This document shows positions 7,299 through 37,767 of a stretch of DNA of 64,000 bases, piece by piece. A model generated the notes under the pieces. It searched no databases. It had not been told where the DNA came from and saw only the letters and a list, made by a program, of their open reading frames with translations. Within the stretch, counting starts at the first letter, position 1. Each line of letters starts with the position of its first letter. The translations under genes and the position numbers were made by a program. Location of the stretch: assembly GCF_000211835.1 (NCBI RefSeq), contig NZ_AEGR01000109.1, positions 1-64,000 on the forward strand, given 5' to 3'. This stretch comes from Hylemonella gracilis ATCC 19624. GTDB lineage: Bacteria; Pseudomonadota; Gammaproteobacteria; Burkholderiales; Burkholderiaceae_C.

Positions 7299-7354
7299 AT
7301 GATTCGAGGCCTGGCGCGCACCTGTGCGGCCCGACACCGAAGCGCAAGCGGTGC

Positions 7355-8155: not shown

Positions 8156-8176
8156 GGGGTGGTACGGGTTGTGATG

Positions 8177-8224
8177 CGTGGACTCTTGGGCGGACTCTTG
8201 TGCTGATTCATGCGCCGATTCATG
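8177..8224 (-). repeat. Four 12-base degenerate tandem repeats between kinase and regulator
   Basis: Read on the minus strand there are four adjacent 12-base units (8224-8213, 8212-8201, 8200-8189, 8188-8177). The first two begin CATGAATC and the last two CAAGAGTCC. They separate the kinase stop (8220) from the regulator ATG (8155). They keep an open frame from the GTG at 8227 that would encode HESA/QESA-type tetrapeptides in front of the receiver domain. Confidence 0.8.
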
Positions 8225-14254: not shown

Positions 14255-14261
14255 TCCTCCC

Positions 14262-14295
14262 CTGAGCGCGCCCCCGGTCCGGGGCGCGCGCTCAG
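14262..14295. terminator. Long GC hairpin between convergent lpoB and xdhC
   Basis: Left arm at 14262-14274 and right arm at 14281-14295 pair over about 13 bases with a two-base bulge. The hairpin sits between the lpoB stop and the xdhC stop, and the xdhC stop codon lies inside the right arm. No clear T-tract follows on either strand, so it may be a weak terminator or an mRNA-stabilising hairpin serving both genes. Confidence 0.5.
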
Positions 14296-15176: not shown

Positions 15177-15295
15177 GCGCGGTGCCGCCGGTCAGATCCG
15201 CCGCGAGGCGGCTACGGGGCACGCGAGAACCCAGGTCACCCCGCCACGGCTGAATGACGATGACATTGGCGCACCCGCCTCGGGCACGGGCCGCG

Positions 15296-15964
15296 TCAGC
15301 GGCCCTTCTTGACCTCGCCGGCCAAGTAATCGACCACCTGGAGCGAGCGCTCCATGCTGCGGGTGAGCGAGGCATCGGTGTAGTAACGGCCGGCGACGCC
15401 CAAGGCCGGCACACCATCCACCTGGTAAGCGCTGACCAGTTGATTGGCCCGCCCGACCTTGGCCGCGACGCTGAAGGAGTTGTAGGCGTCGGTGAACTGC
15501 TTCTTGTCCACGCCCTGGGTCGCGAGCCAGTCGGCCATGCCGGCGGGATCTTCGAGGCGCTGGCGGTCCACATGCACGGCGCGGAACACCTTGGCATGCA
15601 GCTGGTTCAACTGGCCCAGGGCCTCCAGCGCGTAATACAGCCGCTGGCGAGTTTCCGGGCGCGGACCCACGAAGGCCACGGGCACGCGGCGCAGCACCAC
15701 GTCCTTGGGCAGGCGGCGGCTCCAGGCCTCCAACGTGGGCTCGAAGGCGTTGCAGTGCGGGCAGTAGTACGAGAAGAATTCAACCACCTCAACCTGACCC
15801 GCGGGCGTTTCCACGGGCGCGGGCTGCTTGAGCGGCAGGTAGTCACGGCCGCTCTCGAAACCCGGACCCTGGGCCGCGGCGTTCAGTGGAAACGTGGCCG
15901 GCAAAGCGACGGCACTGCCCAGGCCAGCGGCGGTCAAGGCGCGGTTGAATTCACGGCGTTGCAT
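15296..15964 (-). CDS. dsbA: Periplasmic thiol:disulfide interchange protein DsbA
   Basis: Periplasmic oxidase of 222 residues that introduces disulfides into exported proteins. An N-terminal signal peptide (MQRREFNRALTAAGLG...) precedes a thioredoxin fold. The active site is Cys68-Pro-His-Cys71 in FFSYYCPHCNAFEP, the DsbA-type CPHC. The cis-Pro loop is in VDGVPALGVAGRYYTD. The Arg pair near the N-terminus is weakly Tat-like, but Sec export is the norm. It follows the SPOR-protein gene on the same strand, with argS further upstream, an order I know from related Burkholderiales. Electron acceptor DsbB is not in the window. Confidence 0.94.
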   Translation of the reverse strand: MQRREFNRALTAAGLGSAVALPATFPLNAAAQGPGFESGRDYLPLKQPAPVETPAGQVEVVEFFSYYCPHCNAFEPTLEAWSRRLPKDVVLRRVPVAFVGPRPETRQRLYYALEALGQLNQLHAKVFRAVHVDRQRLEDPAGMADWLATQGVDKKQFTDAYNSFSVAAKVGRANQLVSAYQVDGVPALGVAGRYYTDASLTRSMERSLQVVDYLAGEVKKGR

Positions 15965-16040
15965 GGTGAGGGGACTCCTGGTCGCAATGGGGTTGGCGGG
16001 TTAAGGCGCGGACTGGGCGCGTGGACTGAGGCGAGCGGTC

Positions 16041-16634
16041 TCAGCGCTGGCCACGGACCTGGGCGGTCTGCTGGCCGGACGCCTTGAGTTGGCTCTCGGC
16101 GCGGTCGGCGTCTTCCTTGCGTTCGTAGGGGCCCACGCGCACGCGGTAGATCAGACGGCCCGAGGCATCCTCGGCCCGCAGCACGCGCGCCTGTACTCCC
16201 GACAAGGACAGGCGCGCGCGCTGCGCTTCGGCGTCCTCGGGCTTGTAATAGGCACCGACCTGGATGAAATAGGCCAGCGTGTTGGGGTTGTTGGTGTTGG
16301 TGGCCGCCTTGTTGTCTTCGCTGATCTTGGCGCGCGCCAGGTCACCCAGGGGATCGGCCGACTTGGCGGGCACCGTCACCGGCGCGGGCACGGGGGCCTC
16401 GGGCTCGGCGGGCGGCGGCGCGGGCCGGGTCTTGGTCGCCAGGGGGGCGTTAGGCTTCCAGTCCTTGTTGCGCTCCAGCTCGGCCGCGTCCTGTTCGGGC
16501 GTGCGGTTCTGGCCCTTGTTCATGAAGGGCACGGGCGTCTTGGTCACGTAAAGCGCCACCAGCAGCGCCACGGCCAAGCCGACGACGACGCCGATGATGA
16601 AACCGAGGAGCGTGCTGCCGCGTTGCTTGTTCAT
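16041..16634 (-). CDS. SPOR-domain (FtsN-like) membrane protein
   Basis: Single-pass membrane protein of 197 residues: a short basic cytoplasmic start (MNKQRGST), one membrane helix (LLGFIIGVVVGLAVALLVAL), then a Pro/Ala-rich periplasmic linker. The C-terminal SPOR domain (about residues 122-197; YFIQVGAYYKPEDAEAQRARL ... RVGPYERKEDADRAESQL) binds denuded glycan strands at the division septum in this family. The topology and size resemble FtsN, but the essential FtsN motif region is not something I can confirm. It lies between argS and dsbA on the same strand. Confidence 0.88.
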   Translation of the reverse strand: MNKQRGSTLLGFIIGVVVGLAVALLVALYVTKTPVPFMNKGQNRTPEQDAAELERNKDWKPNAPLATKTRPAPPPAEPEAPVPAPVTVPAKSADPLGDLARAKISEDNKAATNTNNPNTLAYFIQVGAYYKPEDAEAQRARLSLSGVQARVLRAEDASGRLIYRVRVGPYERKEDADRAESQLKASGQQTAQVRGQR

Positions 16635-16721
16635 ATCGCAGGAATGGGTTGCAGAAAATTCAAAGGAGCGTCAGACGCAGGGCAGGCGCGACCAGCCCAT
16701 CAAGGTCGGTCGCGCAGGCAT

Positions 16722-18407
16722 TCACATCTTCTCAGGGGCGCTCACGCCCAGCACGGCCAGGCCGTTGCGCAGCACTTGCGCGGTGGCGGCCACCAGGGCC
16801 AGGCGAGCACGCTTGACGGCCTCGTCGTCCACCAGAATGCGCTCGGCATCATAGTAGCTGTGGTAGCTGGAGGCGAGATCGCGCAGGTAAAAAGCCACAT
16901 CGTGCGGGGCGAAATCACGCGCCGCTCCCGTCAGCATGTCGGGGTATTGGGCCAACTTGAGCATCAGCGTGTGCGCGGCTGACGTGTCCAGCGCAGTCAG
17001 GTCGGCGTCGCGCAGGGTCACCGGATCGCCGCCGTCCTTCTCGCGCCAGGCCGCCAACACGGAACAGATGCGCGCGTGCGCGTACTGCACGTAGTAAACC
17101 GGGTTGTCGTTGTTCTTCTGCACGGCCAGGTCGACGTCGAAGGTGTACTCTGTGTCGGGCTTGCGGCTAAGCAGGAAGAAGCGCACAGCGTCCTTGCTGG
17201 TCCATTCGATCAGGTCGCGCAGCGTGACGTAGCTGCCCGCGCGCTTGCTGATCTTCACCTCTTCGCCGCCGCGCACCACGCGCACCATGGTGTGCAGCAC
17301 GTAGTCGGGATAGCCCTGCGGAATGCCGACGCCCGCCGCCTGCAAGCCGGCGCGCACGCGGGCAATGGTGCCGTGGTGGTCCGTGCCCTGGATGTTGACG
17401 ACCTTCTGGAAACCGCGCTCCCACTTGCTGATGTGGTAGGCCACGTCCGGCACGAAGTAGGTGTACGTGCCGTCGCCCTTGCGCATGACGCGGTCCTTGT
17501 CATCGCCGTAGTCGGTGCTGCGCAGCCAGAGCGCGCCGTCTTGTTCGTAGGTCTTACCGGCGGCACGCAGCTTCTCGACCGCCGCGTCGACCCGACCGCT
17601 GGTGTAGAGGCTGGACTCGAGGTAGTAGTTATCGAAACGCAGGTTGAAGGCTTGCAAGTCCAGGTCCTGCTCGTGGCGCAGGTAAGCCACGGCGAACAGG
17701 CGCATGCCATCGAGGTCATCCACCTTGCCGCTGGCCGTGTAGCTGCGGTCATCGGCTTGCACGGTCTTGCCCGCCATGAAGTCGGCCGCGATGTCGGCGA
17801 TGTAGTCACCGTTGTAGGCGCTCTCGGGCCAGCCCGCGTCGCCGGGCTTGAGGCCGCGCGCGCGTGCCTGCACGCTGACCGCGAGGGTCTGGATCTGCAC
17901 CCCCGCGTCGTTGTAATAAAACTCTCGGTACACCTCCCAGCCCTGGGTGGCGTAGAGGTTGGAGATGGCGTCGCCCAGGGCGGCCTGGCGTCCATGGCCC
18001 ACGTGCAGTGGCCCGGTCGGGTTGGCAGAGACGAACTCCACCATCATGCGCTGGCCCTTGGGCGTCTGGCGCCCATAGCGCTCACCCGCGCCCAGCACCT
18101 CGCGCACGATTTCCTGCTTGGCGGCGGGCTTGAGTCGGATGTTGATGAAGCCGGGGCCAGCGATTTCCACCGCATCGACCCAAATGGAAAAGGCGGGCAT
18201 GGCCAGCAGCGCGCGGCGCAGATCCTCGGCGACCTGACGCGGAGGTTGTTTGAGCGGCTTGGCGATCTGCATGGCCGCGGTGGTGGCCAGATCGCCGTGT
18301 TCGGCCAACTTGGGAGATTCGAACGCGGCGCGGGCGCCCGCACCGGGCAACAACTGTTCCAGCACGATGGACAAGGTCTGGAGCAGCTCGTTTTTGACGG
18401 ACAACAT
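16722..18407 (-). CDS. argS: Arginyl-tRNA synthetase
   Basis: Class I aminoacyl-tRNA synthetase that charges tRNA-Arg, 561 residues, cytoplasmic. The N-terminal additional domain begins [20 protein letters not shown]. The HIGH-equivalent motif is in [14 protein letters not shown], and the KMSKS-equivalent is [10 protein letters not shown], as usual in ArgRS. The C-terminal DALR anticodon-binding domain ends with [19 protein letters not shown]. Length is normal for the family. It is followed, 87 bases on, by the SPOR gene and then dsbA on the same strand. The 290-base upstream gap separates it from argP. Confidence 0.97.
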
Positions 18408-25456: not shown

Positions 25457-26065
25457 GTGCAATCTGCCAGTGAAACATGGTTCGACGAGGTCTATTACCA
25501 ACGCTACTACTTCGACAAGAAGACCCGCGTGGTGGACCCCAGCCATCTTGAGCGGCTGGGCACCTTTGTGTGCAGCTACCTCAAGTACCTGCGCGTGCCG
25601 GTGCGGCGCGTGCTGGATGTGGGCTGTGGCGTCGGCCTGTGGCGCGACGTGGTGGCCCGGCACTACCCTGAAGCGCATTACCACGGCGTGGAGTACAGCG
25701 AGTACCTGTGCGCGCGCTACGGCTGGGAGCGCGGCTCCGTGGTTGACTACCGCAGCACCGAGCCTTTTGACCTGGTGATCTGCCAGGGCGTGCTGCCCTA
25801 CCTGAGCGCCGCCGACCTCAAGCTGGCGCTGCACAACCTCGCCACGCTGAGCCGCGGCGCCTTGTACCTGGAGGCCGTGACGCGCGAGGACTATGAGCGC
25901 GACATCGTCGACGACACGCTGACCGACCCGCGCCTGTTTCGCCACCGCGCCCAGCTCTACCGGCGCGGCCTGCTCGAAGGGTTCACCGAGCTGGGCGGCG
26001 GCGTCTGGCTCAGTCGACAGACCACGACGCCGCTGTTTGAACTGGAATACGCGAGCGGGCGCTGA
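25457..26065 (+). CDS. Class I SAM-dependent methyltransferase
   Basis: Protein of 202 residues from a GTG at 25457, preceded by AAGGA. An in-frame ATG at 25367 lies inside the glcB terminator and is unlikely. The SAM-binding motif I is VRRVLDVGCGVGLWRDV, followed by the acidic motif HGVEYSEYL and FDLVICQGVLPYL (motif IV-like). The rest has no diagnostic substrate domain. It sits alone between the glcB terminator and a DUF1624-type gene, so the acceptor molecule is unknown. Confidence 0.82.
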   Translation: MQSASETWFDEVYYQRYYFDKKTRVVDPSHLERLGTFVCSYLKYLRVPVRRVLDVGCGVGLWRDVVARHYPEAHYHGVEYSEYLCARYGWERGSVVDYRSTEPFDLVICQGVLPYLSAADLKLALHNLATLSRGALYLEAVTREDYERDIVDDTLTDPRLFRHRAQLYRRGLLEGFTELGGGVWLSRQTTTPLFELEYASGR

Positions 26066-26136
26066 GCGCGGCGGCCTGACGATGACGGCCGCTGCGTGAT
26101 GCCGCGACACGGAATGCCGCGCGCTACAGTGCGCGC

Positions 26137-26928
26137 ATGAAGCCAGCACGTTCATCCGCCTCTGCCTCATCGCGCACCGCGTCTTCCTCCAAATCACCGC
26201 TGCGCCTGCCGCGCCTGGACGCTCTGCGCGGCGCGGCCTTGTTGTGGATGGCAGCGTTCCACGTCTGCTTTGACCTGGCCTACTTCGGCTGGCTGCAAGC
26301 CGACTTCTACCGCGACCCGTTCTGGACCACGCAGCGCACGCTGATCGTCAGCCTCTTCCTGCTGTGCGCGGGCCTGGGGCAGGCGCTGGCCCACACACAA
26401 AACATCGGCTGGCCGCGCTTCTGGAAACGCTGGGCGCAGATCGCAGGCTGCGCGCTGCTCGTGTCTCTGGGGTCATGGTTCATGTTCCCGGGCAGCTACA
26501 TCAGCTTCGGCGTGCTGCACGGCATGGCCGTGATGCTGCTGATCCTGCGCTGGGTCGGGCCGCGCCTGCGGCCCTGGCACTGCGCCCTGCTCGGCCTGCT
26601 GGCCGTCCTGCTGCCGCATTTCGTGCAGCACCCCTTCTTTGACACGCGCTGGACCAACTGGCTGGGCCTGGTGACGCGCAAACCCATCACCGAAGACTAC
26701 GTGCCCGTCCTGCCCTGGCTGGGCGTGATGCTCTGGGGTTACGGGCTGGGTCGTTGGCTGCTGGCGCGCACGCAGGGCAAGCGCACCGCGCCGATCCTCG
26801 GCGGCGCGGTGCCTAAAGGACTGACCCCGCTGGCGCTGCTGGGGCGCTGGTCCTTGAGCTTTTACATGCTGCACCAGCCGGTGTTGATGGGGGTGATGCT
26901 GGGGGTGGCGGCGGTGTGGGGCCGGTGA
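26137..26928 (+). CDS. DUF1624 / heparan-alpha-glucosaminide acetyltransferase-like membrane protein
   Basis: Integral membrane protein of 263 residues with a Ser/Ala-rich cytoplasmic start and about seven membrane helices. The opening RLPRLDALRGAALLWMAAFHVCFDLAYFG resembles the DUF1624 (HGSNAT-like) acyltransferase family, with the conserved His in AAFHVCFD and later SWFMFPGSYISFGVLHGMAV. Such proteins are thought to move acyl groups across the membrane. No partner enzyme lies next to it. Function beyond the family is not assignable. Confidence 0.78.
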   Translation: MKPARSSASASSRTASSSKSPLRLPRLDALRGAALLWMAAFHVCFDLAYFGWLQADFYRDPFWTTQRTLIVSLFLLCAGLGQALAHTQNIGWPRFWKRWAQIAGCALLVSLGSWFMFPGSYISFGVLHGMAVMLLILRWVGPRLRPWHCALLGLLAVLLPHFVQHPFFDTRWTNWLGLVTRKPITEDYVPVLPWLGVMLWGYGLGRWLLARTQGKRTAPILGGAVPKGLTPLALLGRWSLSFYMLHQPVLMGVMLGVAAVWGR

Positions 26929-26980
26929 AGAGAGGGCAGTCCCGGCCCGTGAGTAAAACAGCGCGGTGCTGACTCAGCCC

Positions 26981-28453
26981 TCACAAACCGCCTGCGTCAA
27001 AAGCGGCGGCCGCAGGATTTTCCTTGCGCATGCTGCCCGCGCTTGGCAGTGGCATTTGCAGCAAAGCGGCGACATCCAGAACACCCGATCCGTAGTTGCC
27101 CTTCTCTTCACCAGACCACTTCCCCGGTTTCGCGCTTTTCATCGCCAAGTATTTGAACGCCTTGGGAATTTGCCAGAGCCCCGTCTGCGCGTACTTGTCA
27201 TGGAGTGCGTCAACACCATGCCAAGCCAGCCACAACGCCGCCGCGCCGGAACAGCACGCTGTTGCATGGGAAGTGCCATGTCCGCTTTCCGCGGCCATGC
27301 TTGCTGGGGTCACGCCACCCGGTTTCCACGGCTCGGCACGAACGTGTCGAATGCCGTCCGCCGGGCCGCAGAGATCCACGTACGGGCCCTTGGCAGCGCG
27401 GCGCCATGGCTTGAGTCGAGGACCGACACCGCCCAGGGTGACGCATCGATTCAAACGGCCCGGGTAAATGACTTCCCCCCAACCCTGGCCTGCGGCACAG
27501 ACCACGATCAACCCTTTTTCATACGCGATATCGAGTGCCGTGGACAAATGGTCCGATGGAAATAGCGCACCAAGAGAAATATTGACGACGTGACACTGCT
27601 GCTCTATCGCCAGAATCACCGCGTCATGAACGTGCTCCTTGACATGGTCAATGATGACTGAATCGGTCACGCGGAATGGGATGATCTGCGCGCCAGGCGC
27701 CACGCCATAGAAAGGGCCGCCTTGCGCGGTCGGGTCGTACCCCGCAATCGTTGCGCTGATGCGAGTCCCGTGCCCTGGAAATCCAGGCAGAAATGGATCA
27801 CGTGGACCATCCGTGTCTTTGAGGCCATCCAGGAGATCAGCGCCTTCGTTTGGAAAGACCGTCCCGCTGGATCCCCCGCTCCATCCCAAGGCTTTGTGCT
27901 CTGTGTACCCCGTATCGATGTGGGCGATGCGCACATCTTTCCACGGGAGCGCATTTGCAAACTTCTCTTGCCCGGCGAACATGCGCCAGGCTGCAACGGC
28001 ATTGACCCCTCTTTCATCAATGTGCCAGTCGTAAGGTCCAGCAAAAGACCCCGGCAGAAATCCCAAAGACTTGTCTTCCAATTGCTCTGGTATTTGCCCG
28101 GGTATCAACTGCGACAAGGCTGCTGATGGCGCGTCAACATGCACGCCGCTTGTCATCCACTCAACATACTCTTTCAATGAAAGAACGCCAACGGATGCAG
28201 CGCCCCAGGATGAGAGTTTTTTGATCCATTCATCCGGCGCAGCGAGGCCCAGTTTCGCTCGCACGATCTGCTCCACGCCATGCGGTATCAAAAACTGCTT
28301 CGAAGAAACCACTCCCTCCAAGGCAGAGAGTGTGTCTGAGGACTCTAGAACCGCTTGCAATTGCTGGTGAAACTCACGCTGTTTCATCGTGTCGTCCGAC
28401 AAAGTCACCGTGGTGATTTGGCTTTCCGACAGGCTACTGAATTGGTCATTCAT
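26981..28453 (-). CDS. Cytoplasmic subtilisin-like (S8) serine protease with novel N-terminal domain
   Basis: Protein of 490 residues (MNDQFSSLSESQ) with a strong site GGAGGTTC before the ATG at 28453. The S8 domain starts at about residue 143. Its triad is Asp180 (RIAHIDTGY), His229 (GFPGHGTRIS) and Ser395 (GHGTSHATACCSG). At the oxyanion position, where subtilases normally have Asn in AAGN, this protein reads CAAGQGWG (Gln323). There is no signal peptide or propeptide-like export region, so it should act inside the cell. The first ~140 residues are unrecognised. It starts 38 bases after the mod stop on the same strand, making it the last gene of the restriction-type operon. Composition is AT-richer than the core chromosome. 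Confidence 0.88.
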   Translation of the reverse strand: MNDQFSSLSESQITTVTLSDDTMKQREFHQQLQAVLESSDTLSALEGVVSSKQFLIPHGVEQIVRAKLGLAAPDEWIKKLSSWGAASVGVLSLKEYVEWMTSGVHVDAPSAALSQLIPGQIPEQLEDKSLGFLPGSFAGPYDWHIDERGVNAVAAWRMFAGQEKFANALPWKDVRIAHIDTGYTEHKALGWSGGSSGTVFPNEGADLLDGLKDTDGPRDPFLPGFPGHGTRISATIAGYDPTAQGGPFYGVAPGAQIIPFRVTDSVIIDHVKEHVHDAVILAIEQQCHVVNISLGALFPSDHLSTALDIAYEKGLIVVCAAGQGWGEVIYPGRLNRCVTLGGVGPRLKPWRRAAKGPYVDLCGPADGIRHVRAEPWKPGGVTPASMAAESGHGTSHATACCSGAAALWLAWHGVDALHDKYAQTGLWQIPKAFKYLAMKSAKPGKWSGEEKGNYGSGVLDVAALLQMPLPSAGSMRKENPAAAAFDAGGL

Positions 28454-28491
28454 GACAAGAACCTCCAGCGGCAATCAACGACCTTGCGTCC

Positions 28492-31464
28492 TCACACCCT
28501 GAACACCTTCATCACCTCATCCCCTAAATGGTTGATGACCTTCACGGCGATGCGCCCACTGCTCGGCTTGTCGAAGGGGCGGGACACGTCGCTGTTGAGC
28601 GAATCCCAGGCTTCCTGGTTGATTTCAGCCTTGAGTGTGGTCTTGAGCGACTTGTAGGGATCGTTGGCGCCGAGGAAGTAGGCGTGGCGGACGAAGAAAC
28701 TTTCTTCGTTGTAGTCGGTGTCGATGAACCAGCAGGCGATGCCGTCGGCGCCGTCGCTGCGCACTTCGCCTGTGCTGGGGTCGAACACGTCCACGCCGTT
28801 GACCTTGACTTTCAGTTCGCCGGTGGCCCGCTCACCGGCCTTGAACGGCTGGTCGGTGGCGGCATCCAGGATGGTGATGTCTGGCTCGCCAAAGATCACG
28901 AAGAGGTTGCCCTTGCCCGTGTTCTTCAGGTCTTCGGCCATGTGCAGGTCGGCGTTCATGCGCGCCTTCAGCACGGGGATGCGACCCAGCTTCTCGAACT
29001 CGCTGCTGTGCGCGTCGTAGTTGAAGGCGCAAGCCACCAGCACGTCAAAACCGGCGTCACCCGCCTCCTTGGCTGCGCTCACCAGATCAGGCCGCGAGAC
29101 GGTGCCAAACTCGGGGCCGATGAAGATGGCAGCGCGCTTTTCGGCGCCGCCTTCACCTTCGGTGTAGCGGCCTTCACCACACACATAACTGCCCGGCCAG
29201 GGCGTGAGGGCGGTGAAACTGATGCGGTCCTGCTTGTGCGCCTGCTGCACGCCCGCCGTGCGCAGGTTTTCCAGGATGATGGCGGCGAAGTCGCGTACGC
29301 TGGTGCCGCCGTAGCCGGCTTCGGGTTCGGCGGCTTTATTGCCGTCCATCACATCGCCGTTTTCGTCCACACCCAGGGTGCGGTGGGGCGAGAGGCTTTC
29401 CACGGTGAAGGGGCCGGCCACGCGCACCTTCTTCTTGTCCTCGTACGGCTTGTCGTAGAGAAATTCGAACTCGGCCTTGGCTGCAATCGAGGCGTCGATT
29501 TCCTTTTGCCGGGCGATGCGCTGCGCCCACCAGTCGGCGTGCAGCTTCCTGATTTCTTGTACGCGTGCGTTGCGGTCCACCGGTGTTGTCGTGACCCGTT
29601 GCTGGAAGCCACTGGTCAACCAGGTGGGAATATGAGGCTCGATGTCGCGAGGCACCTCCCACTCCTGCCATTGCTGCTCGGTCAATTCGTTGAGTTTGAA
29701 GCGCAGCGGTTCCAGCACAGCTTGGAACTTTTCCCAGATCACGTCGATCTCGATGTTGTTGGCAATATCTCCCGAAGTTGTGTTTGTGACATGCTCATAG
29801 ACGAATCCAAGCCTCACATCGCTGCGCACGGGGGAAGACGCAGGCGCTCGTTGCGTTACCTCAGCAACCTTTAGTTGGCCTTCGCGGCTGTCTGCAAGCA
29901 GATAGTAGGGGTAGCGGGCACCCATGATGCGGGCGCGAGCCAAGGCAAGTGCAACACGTGAGGTATCGATAGTGATCCAGCGACGCCCCCATTGCTCGGC
30001 AACGTAGGCCGTCGTTCCTGATCCGCAAGTAATGTCAAGAACAAGGTCACCTGGGTCAGTCGCCAAAAGCAAGCATCGTTGTACGACACGTTCATTTGTC
30101 TGGACAACGTAGATTTGATTCGACGCGCCTCCGAAGCCATCCCACCAATTCGAAATTTCGCGTATTGATGGCTGCGGTGAGTGCCGAACAAACCGCACGT
30201 CCGTGTTTTGAGGATGAAGTCGATCTGCTCGCCCGAGCCGCTCCATACCTGGCGTGCTTCCATCGTCTTCAATCACCGTGTGCTTCCAACACTGCCCTGG
30301 TTTGATCGGGAAAGTACGCCCGCGGAACTTGAAGTCATGTGACTGCTGCCGCCGATTTCCTCCACTCTTCAGCGGATTAGCGGCAAATAACTTCGAGGCC
30401 GGATACCGCCTTTCGAGAGCGGCGAGATCATCGCTGTACTTAAATCCATCCAGCTCTTCGAGCTCAGTCAATCGAAGCCTTCGGCCATCGCTTAACTCAA
30501 TGAAAGGGAAATCCTCAAGAAGCTCGAATTGGCTACGCACCTCATAGATAGGTCGAATCTTGAGTTGGTTCGATGATTTCTTTTGCTTGCCATACCAAAG
30601 AATGAAGTCATTTACAGGGTCCAATGTTCCGCCCTTCTGGCTCCCTTTTTTCTTCACCAGAATCTCAGTAATACAGTTCTCATCCCCAAACACCTCATCC
30701 ATCACCGCCCGCACCCGGTGCACGTTCTCATCCCCGATCTGCACAAAGATCGAGCCGCTGTCGGTCAGCAGATCGCGCGCCACGGTCAGGCGGTCGCGCA
30801 GGTAGGTGAGGTAGGAGTGGATGCCATCGCGCCAGGTATCGCGGAAGGCTTTGACCTGCTCGGGCTCGCGGGTGATGTGACCGGCGTTGCCGTCTTTCAC
30901 GTCCCGGCTGGTGGTGCTCCACTGGAAGTTGCTGTTGAATTTGATGCCGTAGGGCGGGTCGAAGTAGATGCATTGCACCTTGCCACGCAGACCCTCGCGC
31001 TCGGCCAGGCTGGCCATGACGGCCAGGCTGTCGCCCAGGATCATGCGGTTGGCCCAGTGGGCGTCGTGCTGGTAGAACTCGGTCTTGGCCTCGTTGCTGG
31101 GCAGGCCGTTGAAGTCGGCAAACAAATCCGCCACGAACCCCTGCTGCTGGGTGGCGGCCGCGGCCTGGGCCGCCTCGGTCTGGCGCTTCAGGTCGTCGAT
31201 CAGCACCTTGGGGTGGACTTTTTCCTGGATGTAGAGCGGCGGGGCATGGACGACCAGATCGCTCCAGTCCTGCACGTCCTTGCCGCGCCAGACGAGCTGC
31301 GGGTCCAGGTCCTGGTTGCGGCGCTCGTAGGCCACGCGGATGGGGGCCTTGTCCTCGTCGCGCAGGATGCTCTGGTATTCCGCCGTGGGAATGTTCTTGC
31401 GCGTGGCGTCGTCGTGCTTGAGGGTTTCGACCTGAAGCGGTGCTTTGGGTTTGCGGGTGGCCAT
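28492..31464 (-). CDS. Type III-like DNA methyltransferase (Mod)
   Basis: Site-specific adenine (or N4-cytosine) methyltransferase of 990 residues. I start it at 31464 (MATRKPKAPLQ), one base after the stop of the preceding nuclease gene; the frame extends to 31665 but would overlap that gene. Catalytic motif IV is Asp169-Pro-Pro-Tyr172 (CIYFDPPYGIKF). SAM motif I comes later (VLDITCGSGTTAY, about residue 480), so the order is that of beta-class Mod enzymes. The target-recognition region lies between, roughly residues 250-470, in strikingly AT-richer DNA. A long C-terminal part (about 300 residues) exceeds classical Mod proteins. It should protect host DNA from the Res protein and set recognition specificity. 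Confidence 0.9.
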   Translation of the reverse strand: MATRKPKAPLQVETLKHDDATRKNIPTAEYQSILRDEDKAPIRVAYERRNQDLDPQLVWRGKDVQDWSDLVVHAPPLYIQEKVHPKVLIDDLKRQTEAAQAAAATQQQGFVADLFADFNGLPSNEAKTEFYQHDAHWANRMILGDSLAVMASLAEREGLRGKVQCIYFDPPYGIKFNSNFQWSTTSRDVKDGNAGHITREPEQVKAFRDTWRDGIHSYLTYLRDRLTVARDLLTDSGSIFVQIGDENVHRVRAVMDEVFGDENCITEILVKKKGSQKGGTLDPVNDFILWYGKQKKSSNQLKIRPIYEVRSQFELLEDFPFIELSDGRRLRLTELEELDGFKYSDDLAALERRYPASKLFAANPLKSGGNRRQQSHDFKFRGRTFPIKPGQCWKHTVIEDDGSTPGMERLGRADRLHPQNTDVRFVRHSPQPSIREISNWWDGFGGASNQIYVVQTNERVVQRCLLLATDPGDLVLDITCGSGTTAYVAEQWGRRWITIDTSRVALALARARIMGARYPYYLLADSREGQLKVAEVTQRAPASSPVRSDVRLGFVYEHVTNTTSGDIANNIEIDVIWEKFQAVLEPLRFKLNELTEQQWQEWEVPRDIEPHIPTWLTSGFQQRVTTTPVDRNARVQEIRKLHADWWAQRIARQKEIDASIAAKAEFEFLYDKPYEDKKKVRVAGPFTVESLSPHRTLGVDENGDVMDGNKAAEPEAGYGGTSVRDFAAIILENLRTAGVQQAHKQDRISFTALTPWPGSYVCGEGRYTEGEGGAEKRAAIFIGPEFGTVSRPDLVSAAKEAGDAGFDVLVACAFNYDAHSSEFEKLGRIPVLKARMNADLHMAEDLKNTGKGNLFVIFGEPDITILDAATDQPFKAGERATGELKVKVNGVDVFDPSTGEVRSDGADGIACWFIDTDYNEESFFVRHAYFLGANDPYKSLKTTLKAEINQEAWDSLNSDVSRPFDKPSSGRIAVKVINHLGDEVMKVFRV

Positions 31465-31465
31465 T

Positions 31466-32104
31466 TCAGATCTGCGTGGAGTTGTTTGAGTTGCGGCCCG
31501 GGTGAAGGTTGCATGCGACATGTTCAACAGCCAACGCTTCTCCACAGGAATGTAGATGCTTGGAAAGGAACGACCACCTGATTGGGTGATCGATCGTCGC
31601 TCCTTGCTGCTGCAGCGGCAATTCCTCGTCCATACGTTCACGAAGTCTGTCGACCAGGCCTGCAATGTTCTGGCTCAGAAAATAGGCAATCAGCAAGCCA
31701 CGCCCCTCACGCCCCGTCGTATACCTGACGAGCAATTGCTCCAAGCCATCGAAGTGCTTCTGAGGCCCGTCATAAATCTTGGCTTCTCCCAGCCGCTTGC
31801 GCATTGGATAGGAGTGATCCGCAACAATGGTCATATCGACGTGACCATTGGAATTTGCTTCTTGTGTGACTGTCAGCCCTGGAATCGACAGGGCCATTGC
31901 AAGCACACCGGTCAGCCCCACTTCGCCAAGCCCTGCAAAATTCCTGCTGTTCGCTTCAAGCCCTGCAATCGCTTGCGCCAAGAGAACATCGAGGGCGGCA
32001 TCAAACTCCTCGTCGTTCCTGGCTGTCAGGAGGGCCAAATACTCGGGCGCTTTTCTCTGCAAAGCTTCCACATATCCTGCAACACTGTCGACTCTATTCA
32101 CCAC
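31466..32104 (-). CDS. Small PD-(D/E)XK nuclease-like protein between res and mod
   Basis: Protein of 212 residues from overlapping GTG codons at 32104/32101. The start overlaps the res stop by 11 bases, and the stop is one base before mod, so it is translationally locked into the operon. The pattern fits the PD-(D/E)XK fold: helix Glu61 (GLGEVGLTG), Asp90 (NGHVDMTIV), Glu107-x-Lys109 (RLGEAKIYDG), then Gln/Tyr in GLEQLLVRY. I do not recognise a named family. It is separate from the nuclease site in the C-terminal part of Res, so the system has two candidate nuclease active sites. Base composition matches the adjoining 3' end of res rather than most of mod. Confidence 0.75.
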   Translation of the reverse strand: MVNRVDSVAGYVEALQRKAPEYLALLTARNDEEFDAALDVLLAQAIAGLEANSRNFAGLGEVGLTGVLAMALSIPGLTVTQEANSNGHVDMTIVADHSYPMRKRLGEAKIYDGPQKHFDGLEQLLVRYTTGREGRGLLIAYFLSQNIAGLVDRLRERMDEELPLQQQGATIDHPIRWSFLSKHLHSCGEALAVEHVACNLHPGRNSNNSTQI

Positions 32105-35100
32105 GAGGCCCCCCCTTTCCCACGCTCGGCTTCCATCGCATACTTACAGTGGAAGCCCATTGATCCCATTCTTCGTCCGACAACGTCTTTTTCCTGTGCC
32201 AGGCCGTGAGTTTGTCAATGAACTCTTTCAGTGGAACCGGCGTATTGGTCGACTGCGCAACCAGCCCCAAAGCAAGTGTGCCAGCGCCTTGTCTTGTGAG
32301 CGCTGCCAGGACCGCAAGCACATCCCCCTCTGAACAACCAACGGTTTGCGAAATGCGCCGCAAATCACTGATCCGTAATTCATGGTTATCGGTCTTAGAG
32401 AGAATGCTCCAGATGGCTTGGTTCACACCGGTGGGAATCGGAAGTGCACCGAAACTTTGTTGAATTAGTGCACTGGATCGATTGCGCAACATCTCCAGTT
32501 CAGAGGATATTCCTTCGGACAACTGGTCAACTATCCTGGCAAGTTCGGCTTTCAATTTCTCAGCCAAGTCTTGCTCCATCGCATAGACCTCGCTGAATTC
32601 GGCAAACGCCCAGCGGCCATGGGTGCCCAGGGCGTTGACGCCGGGCAGCCAATAGACCTGCATCGTCTCTTTCTTGACCTTGGCGTCTTCGCCCCGATAG
32701 CCCTTGATTTCGACAATGAGGTTCAGCGGTTTGTCCGGCCCATGGCCATCGTCCACACGCAAAATGAAATCCGGCCGGTAACGGCGTGCCTCGCCCGCCA
32801 TGAGGTAGGGCACTTCAAAACCAAGGTTGTGGTTCTTCACATAGGCCAGCACTTGAGGGTGGGCCTCGGCGACGCGGCAGAACTCGGCCTCCCAGTCGCT
32901 GTCGGTGATGATCCAGTTGAGGTGGCACTTGGGGCCACCCACCGACATCCCACTCGTGTCCCAGCGCGTCGTCTTGGAAGTGTTGAAGTTCACATAACGA
33001 GTCGTGCCCACCGGGTTGTACGGGTCAAGCAGGGCACGAATGCGGCTGTCACCCGCCTCGATGTGCGCCCGATTGATGGCTGCCGTGATCTTCTCGCAGG
33101 CCATATCGGCCAACTGAAAGTACATCAGCTGGGCTGGGAAGGTATTGCCCAGGCAGACAAGGTGCTGGTCCAACCACTCCTTGGCAATGCGCCTGAGTTG
33201 ACCGAAGAGGTGCAGCTTCAACTCACCATTGGGATCGCGGTACTGGGTGCTGAGCAGATGCTTGGTGAGGTGCATGAGCAGCGTGGGCTGTCGCATACCT
33301 TCTAGATGACTCAGATCCAGATCAACACCTTCCCCGATGATCCCGGCGTTGTGTACGCGGGACGGCCCCACCAGCTCAGGCGTGAGTCTGAGCATGGAGT
33401 CTTCCGTGAAATGCGCGGTGATGCGCTCTTCGGGCAACTCCACCCGATAACCCTCCACGCGAGGGAACCGTATTTCCAGATGCTCCCGATCAGGTTTGAC
33501 AGCCTTGACCTGCACCGTGTCGCGCGGCGGTTGCGGCGGGGCGACGACCGGCTCAGCGTTGAAGTTGAAGGGGATGCCGAGCACATCGGCGTATTCGACG
33601 TTGAACAGCCCCTCGTCATTGAGGTCGTAAGACTGACGGCGCAAGGCGCGGCCAATCACCTGTTCACACAGCAACTGGGTGCCGAAGGCACGCACGCCCA
33701 AGACATGCGTCACGTTGTTGGCGTCCCACCCCTCGGTGAGCATGGAGACGGAGACCACGCAGCGGATGGATTCGCCCAGCCTGCCGGGTTTGCCCACCGT
33801 GTTCATCACTTCGCGGAGGATGGCCGCGTCGTCCAGTTCCTTGCCGCTCTTCAACTCATCGGCCAGTTTGCCGCCGCGTTCCAAGATTTCATGACGAAAC
33901 TGCTCAATCTCCGGCCCCGCCATGGCACGGAAGTTGTCATCCAAGGCCTCACCGGATTCCAGTTGCGTGCTATCAATCAGAAGTGTCCGCGGACGCGGCA
34001 GTGGCCGGTTCGCATCGTCATAGTTGCGGAACAGGCTCAAGCGACCGTTGACCACAGTGGGGGTGCCGTCGGCGTTCTGGCGCTGAAAGCCAGATATGTA
34101 GTCGTAGACCAGCTTGGATGTGGACGTGTTGTTGCACACCACGATGAAGCAAGGGGGCACGGTGATGCCCGCCTTGCTCCACAACTCGTAAGTCAGTTGG
34201 TAGTGGCCGTACAGAGCTTCCAGCGCGGTCTGCAGGCGGGTGGGCAACTTGAGCGGGTCCAGCCCCTCGGACTTGCCCCGGCCCTTTTTGGGCATGTCCT
34301 TGCGAATGTTTTCCCAAAGGTTGCGGAACACCGGCAGATCATCCTTGCTGGCACCGGGCAGATTGTCGGCAACGGGCACGCGGGGTAGTTTGACAATGCC
34401 GCATTCGATGGCATCCATGAGGGAGAAGTCGCTCATGGTCCAGGGGAAAAGAGTGCCCTCCACATAACCCGATCCGCGCAGGAAGAAGGGCGTGGCCGAG
34501 AGGTCCATGACACGCGTGACGCTCAGCTTGCGGTTCACGGCTTCCAAACCGGAAATCCACAGGCGAGCGGCTTCGTTGTTCTCCTCGGCTTCTTTCTTCT
34601 CGTCGCCAGAAAGTTCCTCGTCCGTCTCGGCGACTTCCGCCTTAGGCTTTTCGCGGTAGCAGTGATGGGCCTCGTCGTTGATGACCATGACGCTGGACAA
34701 GCCCATGAGTTCAGGCATGACACGTTGCAGCATCTGGCCCTCGGTCTCCAGCGTATTGAGCTCTTCACCACCTCGGCCTTGCAACAGCAGGCGCCCGCCC
34801 TTGGACAACTCCATGCGCTCGCGCAACTTGAAGGCGTGGTAGTTGGTGATGACGATCTTGGCTTTGCCCAGGTCGGCCATCATGTCACTGGGCACGAGTT
34901 CGCGGCTGGCGTAGTAGCTATTCGGGTCATGCGGCTGCAGGACTTGCAGCCGATCCTTGATGGTGAGTCCCGGAGCCACCACCAGGAATCCGCGCGTGAA
35001 CTTCTTGCTGGTGGGGCGCCGCACGGCGTTGACGGTCTGCCAGGCGATGAGCATGGCCATGACCGTGGTCTTGCCGGCACCGGTGGCCAGCTTGAGCGCG

Positions 35101-35603
35101 AGTCGCATCAAACCTGGGTTGGCGTCGGCGTTGGCGCCTTGCAGATGGTCTAGAAAGGTCTGCCCGGCCTTCCCCCGGTTGGGGGCGACTTCGGTCAGCC
35201 AAATCGCGGTTTCCACCGCCTCCACCTGGCAGAAGAAGGGCCGCACCCCGCTGAATGGATGGCTCCGCCAGTGCTGGAGCAGGCGGGCGGTTTCGGGCGT
35301 CACACCCCAATCGGCGGGATTGGGAATGGCGCGCCATTTGTCCACTTCGGCTCGCACGCCGTTGATGATGGCCGAGTGATATTGCTGATGCTCATCCGAA
35401 ACCTCGCTGCCCAGCCCAAGCTCGGTCTGCTGGGCCTGGCCCTTCAGCTTTTTGGGTTTGGGAATGGGGGTGATGAACTCAGCCCTACGCCGGGAATCCT
35501 TGATGCGCTGGGTAGGTTGCCCACTGGCGTCCAACTCCCAATGCCGCCCAGGATAGGCGTACGGCGAGTTGAGGATGGGCTTGTTGAAGAATTCTGACGA
35601 CAC
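32094..35603 (-). CDS. Type III-like restriction subunit (Res): SF2 helicase plus PD-(D/E)XK nuclease
   Basis: Protein of 1169 residues from a GTG at 35603 with AAGGGAG about ten bases upstream. SF2 motifs are Walker A LATGAGKTTV (172-181), Walker B/DEAH INDEAHHCY (Asp310), motif III MDLSATPFF, and motif VI EQVIGRALRRQ. A C-terminal nuclease site follows at about residues 945-966 (RYRPDFIL ... LIVEIKGYRG). The last ~150 residues form a small helical domain after the nuclease. The N-terminus (FFNKPILNSPY ... HWELDASGQPT) resembles Res-like proteins I recall as the BPTD_3080 group. With Mod it would translocate on and cleave unmethylated foreign DNA. It is the first large gene of the operon, preceded by a palindrome. 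Confidence 0.9.
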   Translation of the reverse strand: MSSEFFNKPILNSPYAYPGRHWELDASGQPTQRIKDSRRRAEFITPIPKPKKLKGQAQQTELGLGSEVSDEHQQYHSAIINGVRAEVDKWRAIPNPADWGVTPETARLLQHWRSHPFSGVRPFFCQVEAVETAIWLTEVAPNRGKAGQTFLDHLQGANADANPGLMRLALKLATGAGKTTVMAMLIAWQTVNAVRRPTSKKFTRGFLVVAPGLTIKDRLQVLQPHDPNSYYASRELVPSDMMADLGKAKIVITNYHAFKLRERMELSKGGRLLLQGRGGEELNTLETEGQMLQRVMPELMGLSSVMVINDEAHHCYREKPKAEVAETDEELSGDEKKEAEENNEAARLWISGLEAVNRKLSVTRVMDLSATPFFLRGSGYVEGTLFPWTMSDFSLMDAIECGIVKLPRVPVADNLPGASKDDLPVFRNLWENIRKDMPKKGRGKSEGLDPLKLPTRLQTALEALYGHYQLTYELWSKAGITVPPCFIVVCNNTSTSKLVYDYISGFQRQNADGTPTVVNGRLSLFRNYDDANRPLPRPRTLLIDSTQLESGEALDDNFRAMAGPEIEQFRHEILERGGKLADELKSGKELDDAAILREVMNTVGKPGRLGESIRCVVSVSMLTEGWDANNVTHVLGVRAFGTQLLCEQVIGRALRRQSYDLNDEGLFNVEYADVLGIPFNFNAEPVVAPPQPPRDTVQVKAVKPDREHLEIRFPRVEGYRVELPEERITAHFTEDSMLRLTPELVGPSRVHNAGIIGEGVDLDLSHLEGMRQPTLLMHLTKHLLSTQYRDPNGELKLHLFGQLRRIAKEWLDQHLVCLGNTFPAQLMYFQLADMACEKITAAINRAHIEAGDSRIRALLDPYNPVGTTRYVNFNTSKTTRWDTSGMSVGGPKCHLNWIITDSDWEAEFCRVAEAHPQVLAYVKNHNLGFEVPYLMAGEARRYRPDFILRVDDGHGPDKPLNLIVEIKGYRGEDAKVKKETMQVYWLPGVNALGTHGRWAFAEFSEVYAMEQDLAEKLKAELARIVDQLSEGISSELEMLRNRSSALIQQSFGALPIPTGVNQAIWSILSKTDNHELRISDLRRISQTVGCSEGDVLAVLAALTRQGAGTLALGLVAQSTNTPVPLKEFIDKLTAWHRKKTLSDEEWDQWASTVSMRWKPSVGKGGPRGE

Positions 35604-35677
35604 GCGAATTTGACTCCCTTAAAGTTTGCCGCCACCCCGGACGCCAAATGAGATCGTTTGTTTTGTTTTCCATTCTA

Positions 35678-35698
35678 AGTAAACGACCTACGTTTACT
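35678..35698. promoter_or_regulatory. Perfect 8-base palindrome upstream of res
   Basis: Arms AGTAAACG (35678-35685) and CGTTTACT (35691-35698) with a five-base spacer. The site contains the stop codon of the KTSC-like gene and lies about 75 bases before the res start. No T-run follows on the minus strand, so an operator for a repressor or control protein fits better than a terminator. Confidence 0.45.
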
Positions 35699-35987
35699 CC
35701 CCAAACAACCCTCTGAGTTTCTGCGCCACTTCCGATTCCTCGCCGCTACCTCCCTTGCCGTCACTCCTCCCCATCGCCACCTCCTTCGGATACTCCTCCG
35801 CAATCCGGTCCTCCCAATACGTGGTCGGGTTCGGCGCGCTGCACAGCCGGCGGAAGACTTCCTTCGGCACTTGTTTGTAGACCAGCACCGTCTTGTCGTC
35901 GCGGTGCAGGTCCAGTTGCTGGCTGGTGTCGTCGTAATCGGCCCGTCGGATGCGGCCGCTGGTGAAGGTGCGGGTGTGCAGGGTCAT
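35694..35987 (-). CDS. KTSC-domain-like small protein
   Basis: Protein of 97 residues (MTLHTRTFTSGRIRRADYDD). The segment RRADYDDTSQQLDLHRDDKTVLVYKQVPKEVFRRL ends in a KTSC-type pattern (tyrosine-aspartate start, short beta hairpin, VPxxVxxxL, then AEEYPKEV). The C-terminal 25 residues are charged and Gly/Ser-rich. It is on the same strand as res with a 90-base gap and may be the first gene of the defence operon. KTSC proteins have no settled function, though they often occur as small stand-alone genes in accessory regions. A regulatory or nucleic-acid-binding role is speculation. Confidence 0.7.
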   Translation of the reverse strand: MTLHTRTFTSGRIRRADYDDTSQQLDLHRDDKTVLVYKQVPKEVFRRLCSAPNPTTYWEDRIAEEYPKEVAMGRSDGKGGSGEESEVAQKLRGLFGE

Positions 35988-36171
35988 GAGGTGTGTAGGG
36001 GTTTAGATGTCGAGCGCAAGCTGTGCGGTGCTGAAAGGGGCTGTATCGGACTTGGCCGCCATTCTCCGCCGCCATGGCAAACTCTCGCCCCACCATGGCC
36101 CGCCGTGACGACGAACCACACCGCCCCCCGCAGGCGCGGATCGGCCGCGGCGGCGCAACCGAGGCTTGCAC

Positions 36172-37767
36172 ATGAGCACCACCCCAACGACCCCACGCCC
36201 GGCCACGCTGGCCGAGATGCAAGCCCATTACGGCGAGAACTACCGCTGGCGCTTGCTGCTGGCCGTGATGATCGGGACGATGGCGTCCATCATGTCGTCC
36301 ACCATCATCAACGTGGCGATTCCTGATCTGAGCCACCACTTCCACCTGGGGCAGGAGCGCGCGCAATGGGCCAGCTCGGGTTTCATGATCGCGACCACGG
36401 TGTCCATGCTGTGCACGCCCTGGCTGCTCTCGGCGTTCGGTTACCGGCGCACCTACGTGGTCGCGATGGTGATGCTGCTGGGCGGAGGCGTGGTGGGCGG
36501 CTTGTCCAACACCTTTGAGCTGGTGCTGGCCTCGCGCGTGGTGGAAGGCATCGCGGCGGGCGTGGTGCAGCCGATTCCACCCATCATCATCATGCGTGCT
36601 TTCGCGCCGCACGAACGCGGGCGAGCGGGCGGCATCTTCGGCATGGGCGTGGTGCTGGCGCCGGCCATTGGCCCCAGCATCGGCGGCTTGTTGGTCAGCG
36701 GCTTCGGCTGGCGTTCCATCTTCTTCATGGTCGTGCCCTTCTGCATCGCGGCGCTGTGGTTGGCCTACCGTTACGTGCCCGTCTCGGCGCCGGGCGGCGT
36801 GGCGCCGGACCGGCACGGCAACCGGCTGGATTGGCCGGGACTGCTGGTGTCGGGCGTGGGCACGGTGGCGCTGATCAACGGCATGGTGGCGCTGCATGGC
36901 ACGGACCACACCCAGGCCTGGACGCTGCTGGGCCTGGCCGCGGTCTGCCTGAGTGTCTTTTGGGCTTGGCAGCACCGGCAGGTGCGGAGCGCCGCGCAGG
37001 GGGACGCCGTGGGTAGCGCGACAGGTAGCGCAACGGGGGCCACAACGGGCGGCGCGGGTGGCGGCAAGGGCGGTGGCCAACCGCTGATGCACCCGGCGTT
37101 GTTCAGTTCACGCTCTTTCGCGGCGGGCAGCCTGGTGGCCTTCATCTACGGCACGGCCTTGTTCGGTTCCACCTACTTGCTGCCGCTCTACATCCAGATG
37201 GCGCAGGGCCTGTCGGCGGCCTACGTGGGCACCATCATGCTGCCGGCAGGTCTGGTGCTGGCGGTGACGATTCCGCTGGCGGGGCGCCTGTCGGACCGCG
37301 TGCCGATTCGCGTGCTGATCTGCGCGGGTCTGGGCCTGCTGGCGGCGTCTTTCGCGCTGATGCTCACGCTGGGCATGGGCGCGGCCATCTTCTCGCTGGT
37401 GACTTGGGCGGTGCTGGGGCGCATTGGCCTGGGCTTCATCCTGCCCTCGCTGAACAACGGCGCCATGTCCGGGCTGGAGCCCAAGCTGATCTCGCAGGCG
37501 TCCAGCGCCATCAACTTCATCCGCATGCTGGGCGGCTCCATCGGCGTCAGCTTGTGCGGCATCGTGCTGGAGTGGCGCATCGCCGTGCACGGCGACAGCC
37601 TCAAGCAGGCGGGCAGCAGCCCGGCCCGGCTGGCGGCGTTCGACGAAGCCTTTCTGATGCTGGCCCTGCTCTGCGTGGTGGCCATGGTGGCGGCCTGGCG
37701 CATGAAGAGCACGCCGCGCCCGGCCGCACCCCCGCCCACACCCACCTCGCCATCTGGCGCGAACTGA
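36172..37767 (+). CDS. DHA2-family (EmrB/QacA-like) multidrug MFS exporter
   Basis: Inner-membrane proton-coupled exporter of 531 residues with about 14 helices. The ATG at 36172 is chosen over a TTG at 36166. DHA2 features are IMSSTIINVAIPDLSHHF in helix 1, QWASSGFMIATTVSML, and the motif-C region GMGVVLAPAIGPSIGGLLV. A central loop (about residues 280-300) is a Gly/Ala/Thr/Ser repeat (GSATGSATGATTGG) of variable-looking low complexity. It lies just right of the defence operon, transcribed away from it, and marks the return to GC-rich chromosomal DNA. The substrate is not predictable. Confidence 0.9.
   Translation: MSTTPTTPRPATLAEMQAHYGENYRWRLLLAVMIGTMASIMSSTIINVAIPDLSHHFHLGQERAQWASSGFMIATTVSMLCTPWLLSAFGYRRTYVVAMVMLLGGGVVGGLSNTFELVLASRVVEGIAAGVVQPIPPIIIMRAFAPHERGRAGGIFGMGVVLAPAIGPSIGGLLVSGFGWRSIFFMVVPFCIAALWLAYRYVPVSAPGGVAPDRHGNRLDWPGLLVSGVGTVALINGMVALHGTDHTQAWTLLGLAAVCLSVFWAWQHRQVRSAAQGDAVGSATGSATGATTGGAGGGKGGGQPLMHPALFSSRSFAAGSLVAFIYGTALFGSTYLLPLYIQMAQGLSAAYVGTIMLPAGLVLAVTIPLAGRLSDRVPIRVLICAGLGLLAASFALMLTLGMGAAIFSLVTWAVLGRIGLGFILPSLNNGAMSGLEPKLISQASSAINFIRMLGGSIGVSLCGIVLEWRIAVHGDSLKQAGSSPARLAAFDEAFLMLALLCVVAMVAAWRMKSTPRPAAPPPTPTSPSGAN

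Follow-up and report, generated by a model that had tools for sequence, protein, structure and literature searches.

A probable Type III-like res-mod operon with exchangeable accessory genes in Hylemonella gracilis ATCC 19624

Gene content of the locus

The window (the whole stretch of DNA analysed, 64,000 nucleotides, positions 1 to 64,000 of contig NZ_AEGR01000109.1 of Hylemonella gracilis ATCC 19624) contains five consecutive open reading frames (ORFs) on one strand, which encode, in order, a KTSC-domain protein, a restriction endonuclease (Res), a small predicted nuclease, an adenine methyltransferase (Mod) and an S8 subtilase (Table 1). We propose that these genes, the KTSC gene apart, probably make up a BPTD_3080-family (Type III-like) res-mod operon, sited in a defence hot-spot and carrying exchangeable accessory genes. 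A first-pass annotation of the same DNA had described a five-gene defence-like operon. The five ORFs, their order and common strand, the overlap of 11 bases between res and the small ORF (32094-32104), the single base (31465) between the stop codon of the latter and the start of mod, and the 38 bases with a GGAGG ahead of the protease start codon were confirmed from the sequence. The gap between the KTSC gene and res is 90 bases long. On its other side, the protease gene is flanked by an HGSNAT_cat gene. Rfam gave no match at 26000-37000 of the window.

Table 1 Features of the res-mod locus in the window
Feature	Coordinates	Strand	Evidence or remark
KTSC-domain gene	35694-35987	-	PF13619, 50.5 bits; flanking gene of the site, judged outside the operon
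Res, whole ORF	32094-35603	-	
Res core (helicase and nuclease), BPTD_3080 family	32563-35603	-	NF046055; ResIII; 93% DNA identity to G003
Res extra C-terminal tail, ~155 residues	32094-32562	-	relatives lack it
Small PD-(D/E)XK-like predicted nuclease, cargo of the res-mod slot	31466-32104	-	phrog_9664, 66 bits
Mod, Type III-like adenine methyltransferase	28492-31464 (ATG)	-	PDLC03632; PF01555
Stretch of mod differing between congeneric alleles, predicted target recognition domain	30079-30675	-	
38-base spacer carrying GGAGG ahead of the protease ATG	28454-28491	-	sequence
S8 subtilase, cargo behind mod	26981-28453 (ATG)	-	PF00082, 70.1 bits (cut-off 21.8)

Res scores 1333.3 bits against NF046055 (BPTD_3080 restriction endonuclease; curated cut-off 800). 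It has a superfamily 2 (SF2) helicase domain (ResIII, PF04851, 37.4 bits, cut-off 22.5) and a putative C-terminal endonuclease domain, for which the match to RE_endonuc (PF19778) lies just below the cut-off (21.8 and 23.4 bits, respectively) and the motif PDFILR...EIKGY is visible in the translation. A sequence comparison with solved structures (E up to 1) gave no relative of Res. The relatives of Res align up to residue ~1030 only, beyond which the window protein adds a tail of ~139-155 residues that the first-pass annotation had not noted. No homologue of this tail was found on plasmids, on viral contigs or in PHROGs, and 230 genomes of the order yielded, apart from the tail itself, one marginal match (E 0.005).

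Mod matches the PADLOC model MTase_III (PDLC03632) with 1338 bits, N6_N4_Mtase (PF01555) with 108.2 bits and the Type III Mod structures 6k0w and 4zcf. Its DPPY motif (residue 169) lies ahead of the CGSGTT motif (residue 480), with a variable region between them. The earlier assignment of a Res/Mod pair of Type III-like character, with further genes packed close to it (one for a predicted nuclease, the other for a subtilase), is supported. Classical Type III systems have the gene order mod-res, from which the order res-(cargo)-mod seen here differs. As PrrC is embedded in a restriction operon, a small predicted nuclease is here encoded between res and mod.

The GC content at third codon positions (GC3) separates the locus into three layers: the host genes (0.85-0.90), the res core together with mod (0.75-0.78), and the Res tail, small ORF and protease gene (0.49-0.62), the tail (32094-32514) having the lowest value of the locus, 0.49, and the protease gene a value of 0.62. 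The KTSC gene, at 0.82, is intermediate between the host genes and res/mod.

A congeneric allele with other accessory genes

A second genome of the genus, G003, carries an allelic operon at the same site, in flanking DNA that is 95% identical. Its res is 93% identical to that of the window at the DNA level up to window base ~32563, and over 1010 codons of the Res core the nonsynonymous and synonymous divergences (dN and dS) are 0.017 and 0.288, respectively. In mod, the stretch 30079-30675 has no DNA match to G003, whereas the pieces on either side of it match at 96% and 88% identity. At the protein level, blocks within Mod residues ~271-475 are 17-53% identical, against 80-100% for most of the others; identity drops again at residues 536-595 (37% and 73%). 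We read the middle part of Mod as a recognition domain that has been swapped between the two alleles. In G003 the gap between res and mod is occupied by a gene for an NYN-domain protein (PF01936, 41 bits), preceded by an ORF of 72 codons; behind mod there is no protease gene, and ~170 bases lie between the matching stretches. This comparison indicates that the constant part of the operon consists of Res and the remainder of Mod, while the nuclease together with the Res tail, the protease and the recognition domain would be exchangeable.

In a third genome of the genus, G007, the flanks match as well, and between them lie genes for a Type I-like HsdR and for a Fic protein (L113 9667-17167). An intact KTSC gene stands beside this Type I-like island, in the absence of a window-type operon, and KTSC relatives are present in 16 of the 26 genomes of the genus, the window's own included. 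Given its spread across the genus and the content of the site in G007, the KTSC gene flanks the site, which is itself a defence hot-spot. Membership of the KTSC gene in the operon, as claimed by the first-pass annotation, was rejected in view of its occurrence without the operon; the 90-base gap to res also speaks against it.

Unrelated genes occupy the res-mod gap

Res matches at E up to 0.001 are found in 53 of 300 genomes of the order, many of them being weak helicase matches. The operons compared (n = 15) comprise those of G003 and the window and 13 loci, from 12 genomes (L054 and L055 belong to the same one), whose Res has 60% identity or more; truncated or fragmentary Res matches (e.g. 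L067 and L049) and more distant ones are left out. The res-mod gap is filled in 12 of the 15, by eight kinds of gene: Bro-N (L054, L057, L062 and L065), Fic (L055 and L059), a YhcG nuclease (L053), ORF6N (L058), DUF4062 with HATPase (L060), an unassigned protein of 308 residues (L064), NYN (G003) and the small PD-(D/E)XK-like nuclease (window). A PIN gene occupies the gap in the distant locus L066, which lies outside the set. These comparisons establish, at the level of sequence, the res-mod gap as a cargo slot that holds unrelated genes in different genomes. In the window the slot carries the nuclease and, with it, the foreign tail of Res.

Plasmids add supporting evidence only, since the PLSDB annotation is incomplete. 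Six of the 27 plasmids with a Mod match were read, and the slot is filled in three and empty in two of the five that have both res and mod in view. The filled slots contain a REase-ARP/PDDEXK nuclease gene (Phenylobacterium), a UPF0175 and DUF3368 pair (Picosynechococcus) and a hypothetical gene with no Pfam match (Rhizobium); the empty ones are those of Pseudomonas avellanae and P. amygdali. The slot of L137 was counted as empty, a short ORF ahead of mod being the start of a broken mod. In the Chlorohelix plasmid a DUF4209 gene stands directly ahead of mod, with res out of view (L140).

Twelve operons (ten loci, G003 and the window) could be read past mod, and among these the window alone has a protease gene there; L054, L055 and L059 are readable for at most 344 bases past mod. 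The six plasmid stretches contain no protease match. Other genomes were searched for the five genes together, as had been proposed beforehand as a check of the five-gene operon: neither the small nuclease nor the protease was found in any of the other operons read (three of them not readable past mod). A conserved KTSC-Res-nuclease-Mod-protease system is thus ruled out by these operons together with the G003 allele.

Two of the operons, L058 and L065, have a damaged res, one with a stop codon and the other with an insertion, and mod of L065 is also truncated. By eye, res of L065 is split at 7068-8314 by an apparent transposase pair, and a second transposase-like pair follows the truncated mod. 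A gene for a UvrD-family helicase with a shared N-terminus lies downstream of mod in four of the 12 readable genome operons (L053 153-2315, L058 13140-14768, L060 14643-16745 and L064 11937-14063) and in four of the six plasmid stretches (L136 8844-10937, L137 8682-10760, L138 10143-12200 and L139 6320-8437); five of these calls are from Pfam, the rest from the shared start or the annotation. The window and G003 lack such a gene downstream of mod.

The S8 protease and a relic mod beside its closest relative

The protease also matches the PADLOC model 'subtilase' weakly (PDLC03014, 27 bits), as well as the PHROG profile phrog_3677 'protease' (S8 domain, 98 bits) and the mycosin profile TIGR03921 of the type VII secretion system (T7SS), the last with 110 bits, below its cut-off of 278.75. 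Its best match in the PDB is 7y6m, an intracellular serine protease chain (56 bits). A structure model made from five sequences is poor (mean predicted local distance difference test score, pLDDT, 52), and the fold search led to subtilisins, as the sequence had already shown. Ser395, of which the first-pass annotation had proposed a mutant, is the catalytic serine: the triad Asp180, His228 and Ser395 is kept in 16 of 16 aligned proteins. The Asn of the AAGN motif is the oxyanion-hole residue of subtilases. At its position all seven full-length members have Gln (AAGQ), while among the nine distant proteins two have Gln and seven Asn. The protein has an N-terminal domain of its own (~140 residues) and, judged by eye, no evident export signal, in keeping with its earlier description as an intracellular subtilase.

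A narrow-pattern scan of genome contigs that used an alignment of two sequences yielded four protease loci, and profile searches found relatives in 15 of 399 genomes of the family (E up to 1e-30) and in two of 249 of the order (E up to 1e-60), each count including the genome of the window itself. Ten of the 15 family relatives are shorter or diverged at the N-terminus. The same kind of narrow-pattern scan found no relatives of the protease or of the small nuclease on viral contigs; a tblastn search with the protease domain found 14 phage records, with up to 33% identity. Full-length members, i.e. those with the N-terminal domain, number seven: the window, L071, L072, L073, L091, L092 and L019 (G458 is counted with L072, and L074 with L019). 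Five of them (L072, L073, L091, L092 and L019) have no res or mod in the sequence read, which extends only ~900 bp upstream in L073 and is a 7-kb contig in L092. Unless Pfam is cited, their contexts are readings of ORF lists by eye. The proteases of L072, L091 and L092 have no recognised defence partners; that of L073 is followed by genes for an AAA ATPase, an HNH-like protein (no Pfam hit) and a patatin; and in L019 (5367-17389) a row on the same strand contains a Tle1-like lipase gene, Amidase_2, a carbon-nitrogen-hydrolase-like gene (assigned by eye, without a Pfam hit) and a gene for a ParA/CbiA-like ATPase. The L072 and L073 proteases differ by a dN of 0.066 and a dS of 0.62; no usable dS was obtained for the window and L071 pair.

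The closest relative, L071, is 62% identical to the window protease and stands behind a mod and a res whose products are only 35% and 33% identical to those of the window. The ~230 bases between res and the protease gene of L071 hold the remnant of a window-type mod: stretches of 29 and 35 residues match Mod 962-990 (E 3e-6) and 649-683 (E 2e-5), respectively, and 51 bases are 88% identical to the 3' end of the window mod. This relic implies that the protease gene has stood directly behind a window-type mod in two lineages, and from it, together with the position behind a mod-res pair, the link between protease and mod appears to be old. In this one respect the data favour the first-pass annotation. 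In the stretches read around the remaining protease relatives, tblastn (E up to 1) gave no trace of mod.

Distant S8 relatives in L012, L013 and L101 lie ahead of a serine/trypsin-like protease gene and a further large gene (for an AAA-type ATPase in L101 and an ATP-binding protein in L012). This arrangement appears to be a different protease-based conflict system.

The small predicted nuclease occurs elsewhere in a three-gene module

The small ORF has no Pfam, PADLOC, NCBIfam or solved-structure match, and the profile that it does match, phrog_9664, carries no assigned function. The nuclease label given to it by the first-pass annotation was retained as a prediction: residues Asp90, Glu107-Ala-Lys109 and Gln123 are invariant in five of five aligned proteins, and for this reason we call the product PD-(D/E)XK-like. 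Relatives are rare, being found in three of 300 genomes of the order and two of 321 of the class (the window's included in each), on two plasmids and, by tblastn, in three phage records.

In L014, L020, L021 and L114 the small nuclease gene is the third of a row, after genes for proteins of 351-365 and 126-152 residues. By profile this row corresponds to phrog_12777, phrog_11490 and phrog_9664, recognised in full in L114 and in part in L014, and L015 and an Acinetobacter phage record have the same layout by gene size and order. The occurrences (L014 8512-10693, L114 9335-11520, L020, L021, L015 and L134) comprise plasmids, a phage record and chromosomes. The module, whose last gene is the PD-(D/E)XK-like one, is a candidate for a role in defence or conflict. 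At E up to 1e-3 its surrounding stretches showed neither res nor mod of the BPTD_3080 type. In L114 a Type ISP restriction-modification gene (13935-17033; PF18135, 259 bits) is located two genes from the module.

The window lacks the first two genes of the module, and the Res tail sits where phrog_11490 would be. That the tail is homologous to phrog_11490 is a guess. A fused copy of phrog_11490 finds no support beyond the colinear position; hhalign gave E values of 0.12 and, with the two aligned end to end, 0.08.

Second-line effectors or travelling genes

From what is known of the family, Mod would methylate one type of adenine site, and the Res/Mod complex would cut unmethylated DNA. The slot and the downstream cargo would supply further arms as second-line effectors. 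The protease would be made together with the restriction-modification (RM) enzymes and unleashed, in the manner of PrrC in EcoprrI, on infection or failure of these enzymes, and would then cleave host or phage proteins. Second-line effector is the role that we tentatively favour for the protease as the most likely one, simple hitch-hiking being in our analysis almost as likely. Unlikely as a whole, but worth stating, is the wider scheme in which the BPTD_3080 operons would be a general platform, consisting of a DNA-cutting core and a swappable effector that is exchanged together with the recognition domain of Mod, with the protease among the effectors of this lineage, where it would guard the RM enzymes as a protein-cleaving reserve.

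The alternative that survives best, possible but rather doubtful, is that the protease and the small nuclease are stand-alone or mobile genes which landed beside res/mod in the hot-spot, act independently of it and may not serve defence at all. The full-length protease genes of L072, L091, L092 and L019, which occur without res/mod, agree with such hitch-hiking, as do the ten shorter or N-terminally diverged relatives from the family, around which no res/mod trace was found (tblastn, E up to 1, stretches read), the Type I-like and Fic genes at the same site in G007, and the intact protease gene beside damaged RM genes in L071. Two of the seven full-length proteases speak against it, being encoded immediately after mod or mod-res genes in the same orientation, one of them with the relic of a mod of the window type; the 38-base spacing and the GGAGG moreover fit co-expression with mod.

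Several results weigh against the operon and effector interpretation that we prefer. The slot is empty in three of the 15 operons (L056, L061 and L063). A promoter scan of 26850-36200 found no sigma-70-like site (mean of 2.0 in shuffled sequences), so that transcription as an operon is deduced from gene spacing only. It is not certain that the protease is active, because Gln replaces the oxyanion-position Asn in all seven full-length members. Finally, the L071 protease frame is intact (by eye) despite the relic mod and the out-of-frame start of the nearby res, which argues against dependence of the protease on the RM enzymes; as L071 is a metagenome assembly, an error of assembly may be involved here.

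A fixed five-gene defence system, in which the protease and the nuclease are needed for function, would account for the tight spacing and the overlap of the genes. The first-pass annotation, which had proposed one such unit, stated in advance that homologues of the protease and the small nuclease scattered without res/mod would refute it. Five of the seven full-length protease relatives are of this kind in the sequence read, the small nuclease occurs in a separate three-gene module, the near-identical Res/Mod core of G003 does without both genes, no other operon read has either (with three not readable past mod), and the KTSC gene occurs without the operon. The fixed system is highly improbable, being refuted as a conserved unit, though in this one strain both genes may yet be needed for function. 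Equally hard to credit is that the protease controls the RM enzymes, for instance by degrading Res to prevent self-restriction: its position behind mod and the precedent of Type I restriction subunits, which are under proteolytic control by a host protease, are in favour, but G003 has a near-identical res/mod pair with no protease, and so have no protease the other operons readable past mod.

Of most interest are the slot for cargo between res and mod, the swap seen between the congeneric alleles, and the relic mod next to the protease of L071. Should the res-mod gap serve as a permanent site for toxins and nucleases, any operon of this type would be a pre-sorted candidate list of second-line effectors. 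The window and G003 constitute a natural swap experiment, with near-identical Res and Mod core, a different recognition domain and different cargo, which makes it testable whether accessory genes of restriction-modification (R-M) operons act as guards of the RM enzymes, like PrrC, or only travel with them. A protease in this position would extend the effector types beside R-M operons in the excerpts of PMC3710099 (RNA cutting and protein modification) to protein cleavage.

Comparison with known systems

The window operon resembles the BPTD_3080/Type III-like systems in its family scores and in the order res-(X)-mod, which is also that of the plasmid records so annotated. It differs from them in the extra C-terminal tail of Res and in its cargo, a nuclease and an S8 protease, found in no other operon read. 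With the phrog_12777 - phrog_11490 - phrog_9664 module it shares the small nuclease but not the first two genes.

The protease has the catalytic Asp, His and Ser of the intracellular S8 serine proteases (7y6m) and of TIGR03921, from which it is set apart by its own N-terminal domain of ~140 residues and by having Gln in place of the AAGN Asn. The subtilase and AAA-ATPase pair of pTiC58, known as IetAS, likewise places a subtilase in a mobile conflict setting, but the window protease has no adjacent ATPase gene, its neighbours being mod and HGSNAT_cat. The pTiC58 pair is described as a toxin-antitoxin system in the excerpts of PMC3339403, where type III restriction-modification and a subtilase are mentioned at separate loci. 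Neither a subtilase in a restriction operon nor a res-mod cargo slot figured in the titles and abstracts of the open-licence literature matches listed.

Accessory toxins embedded in R-M operons, EcoprrI/PrrC among them, are reported in the excerpted texts of PMC3874165, PMC12707154 and PMC3710099, the last of which includes toxin genes, Doc/Fic and RhuM-like ones among them, in or beside such operons. PrrC of EcoprrI is sequestered in the Type IC complex and released on phage T4 infection, according to the excerpts of PMC3874165. PrrC is an ABC-HEPN anticodon nuclease of a Type IC operon, whereas the operon of the window is Type III-like and its accessory genes encode a PD-(D/E)XK-like protein and a subtilase. 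For none of the five proteins was an ABC-HEPN anticodon nuclease domain reported by Pfam, PADLOC or NCBIfam. The likeness, drawn here from sequence only, is one of arrangement: in EcoprrI/PrrC as in the window, genes for non-RM effectors, putative ones in the window, are placed inside or beside an R-M operon.

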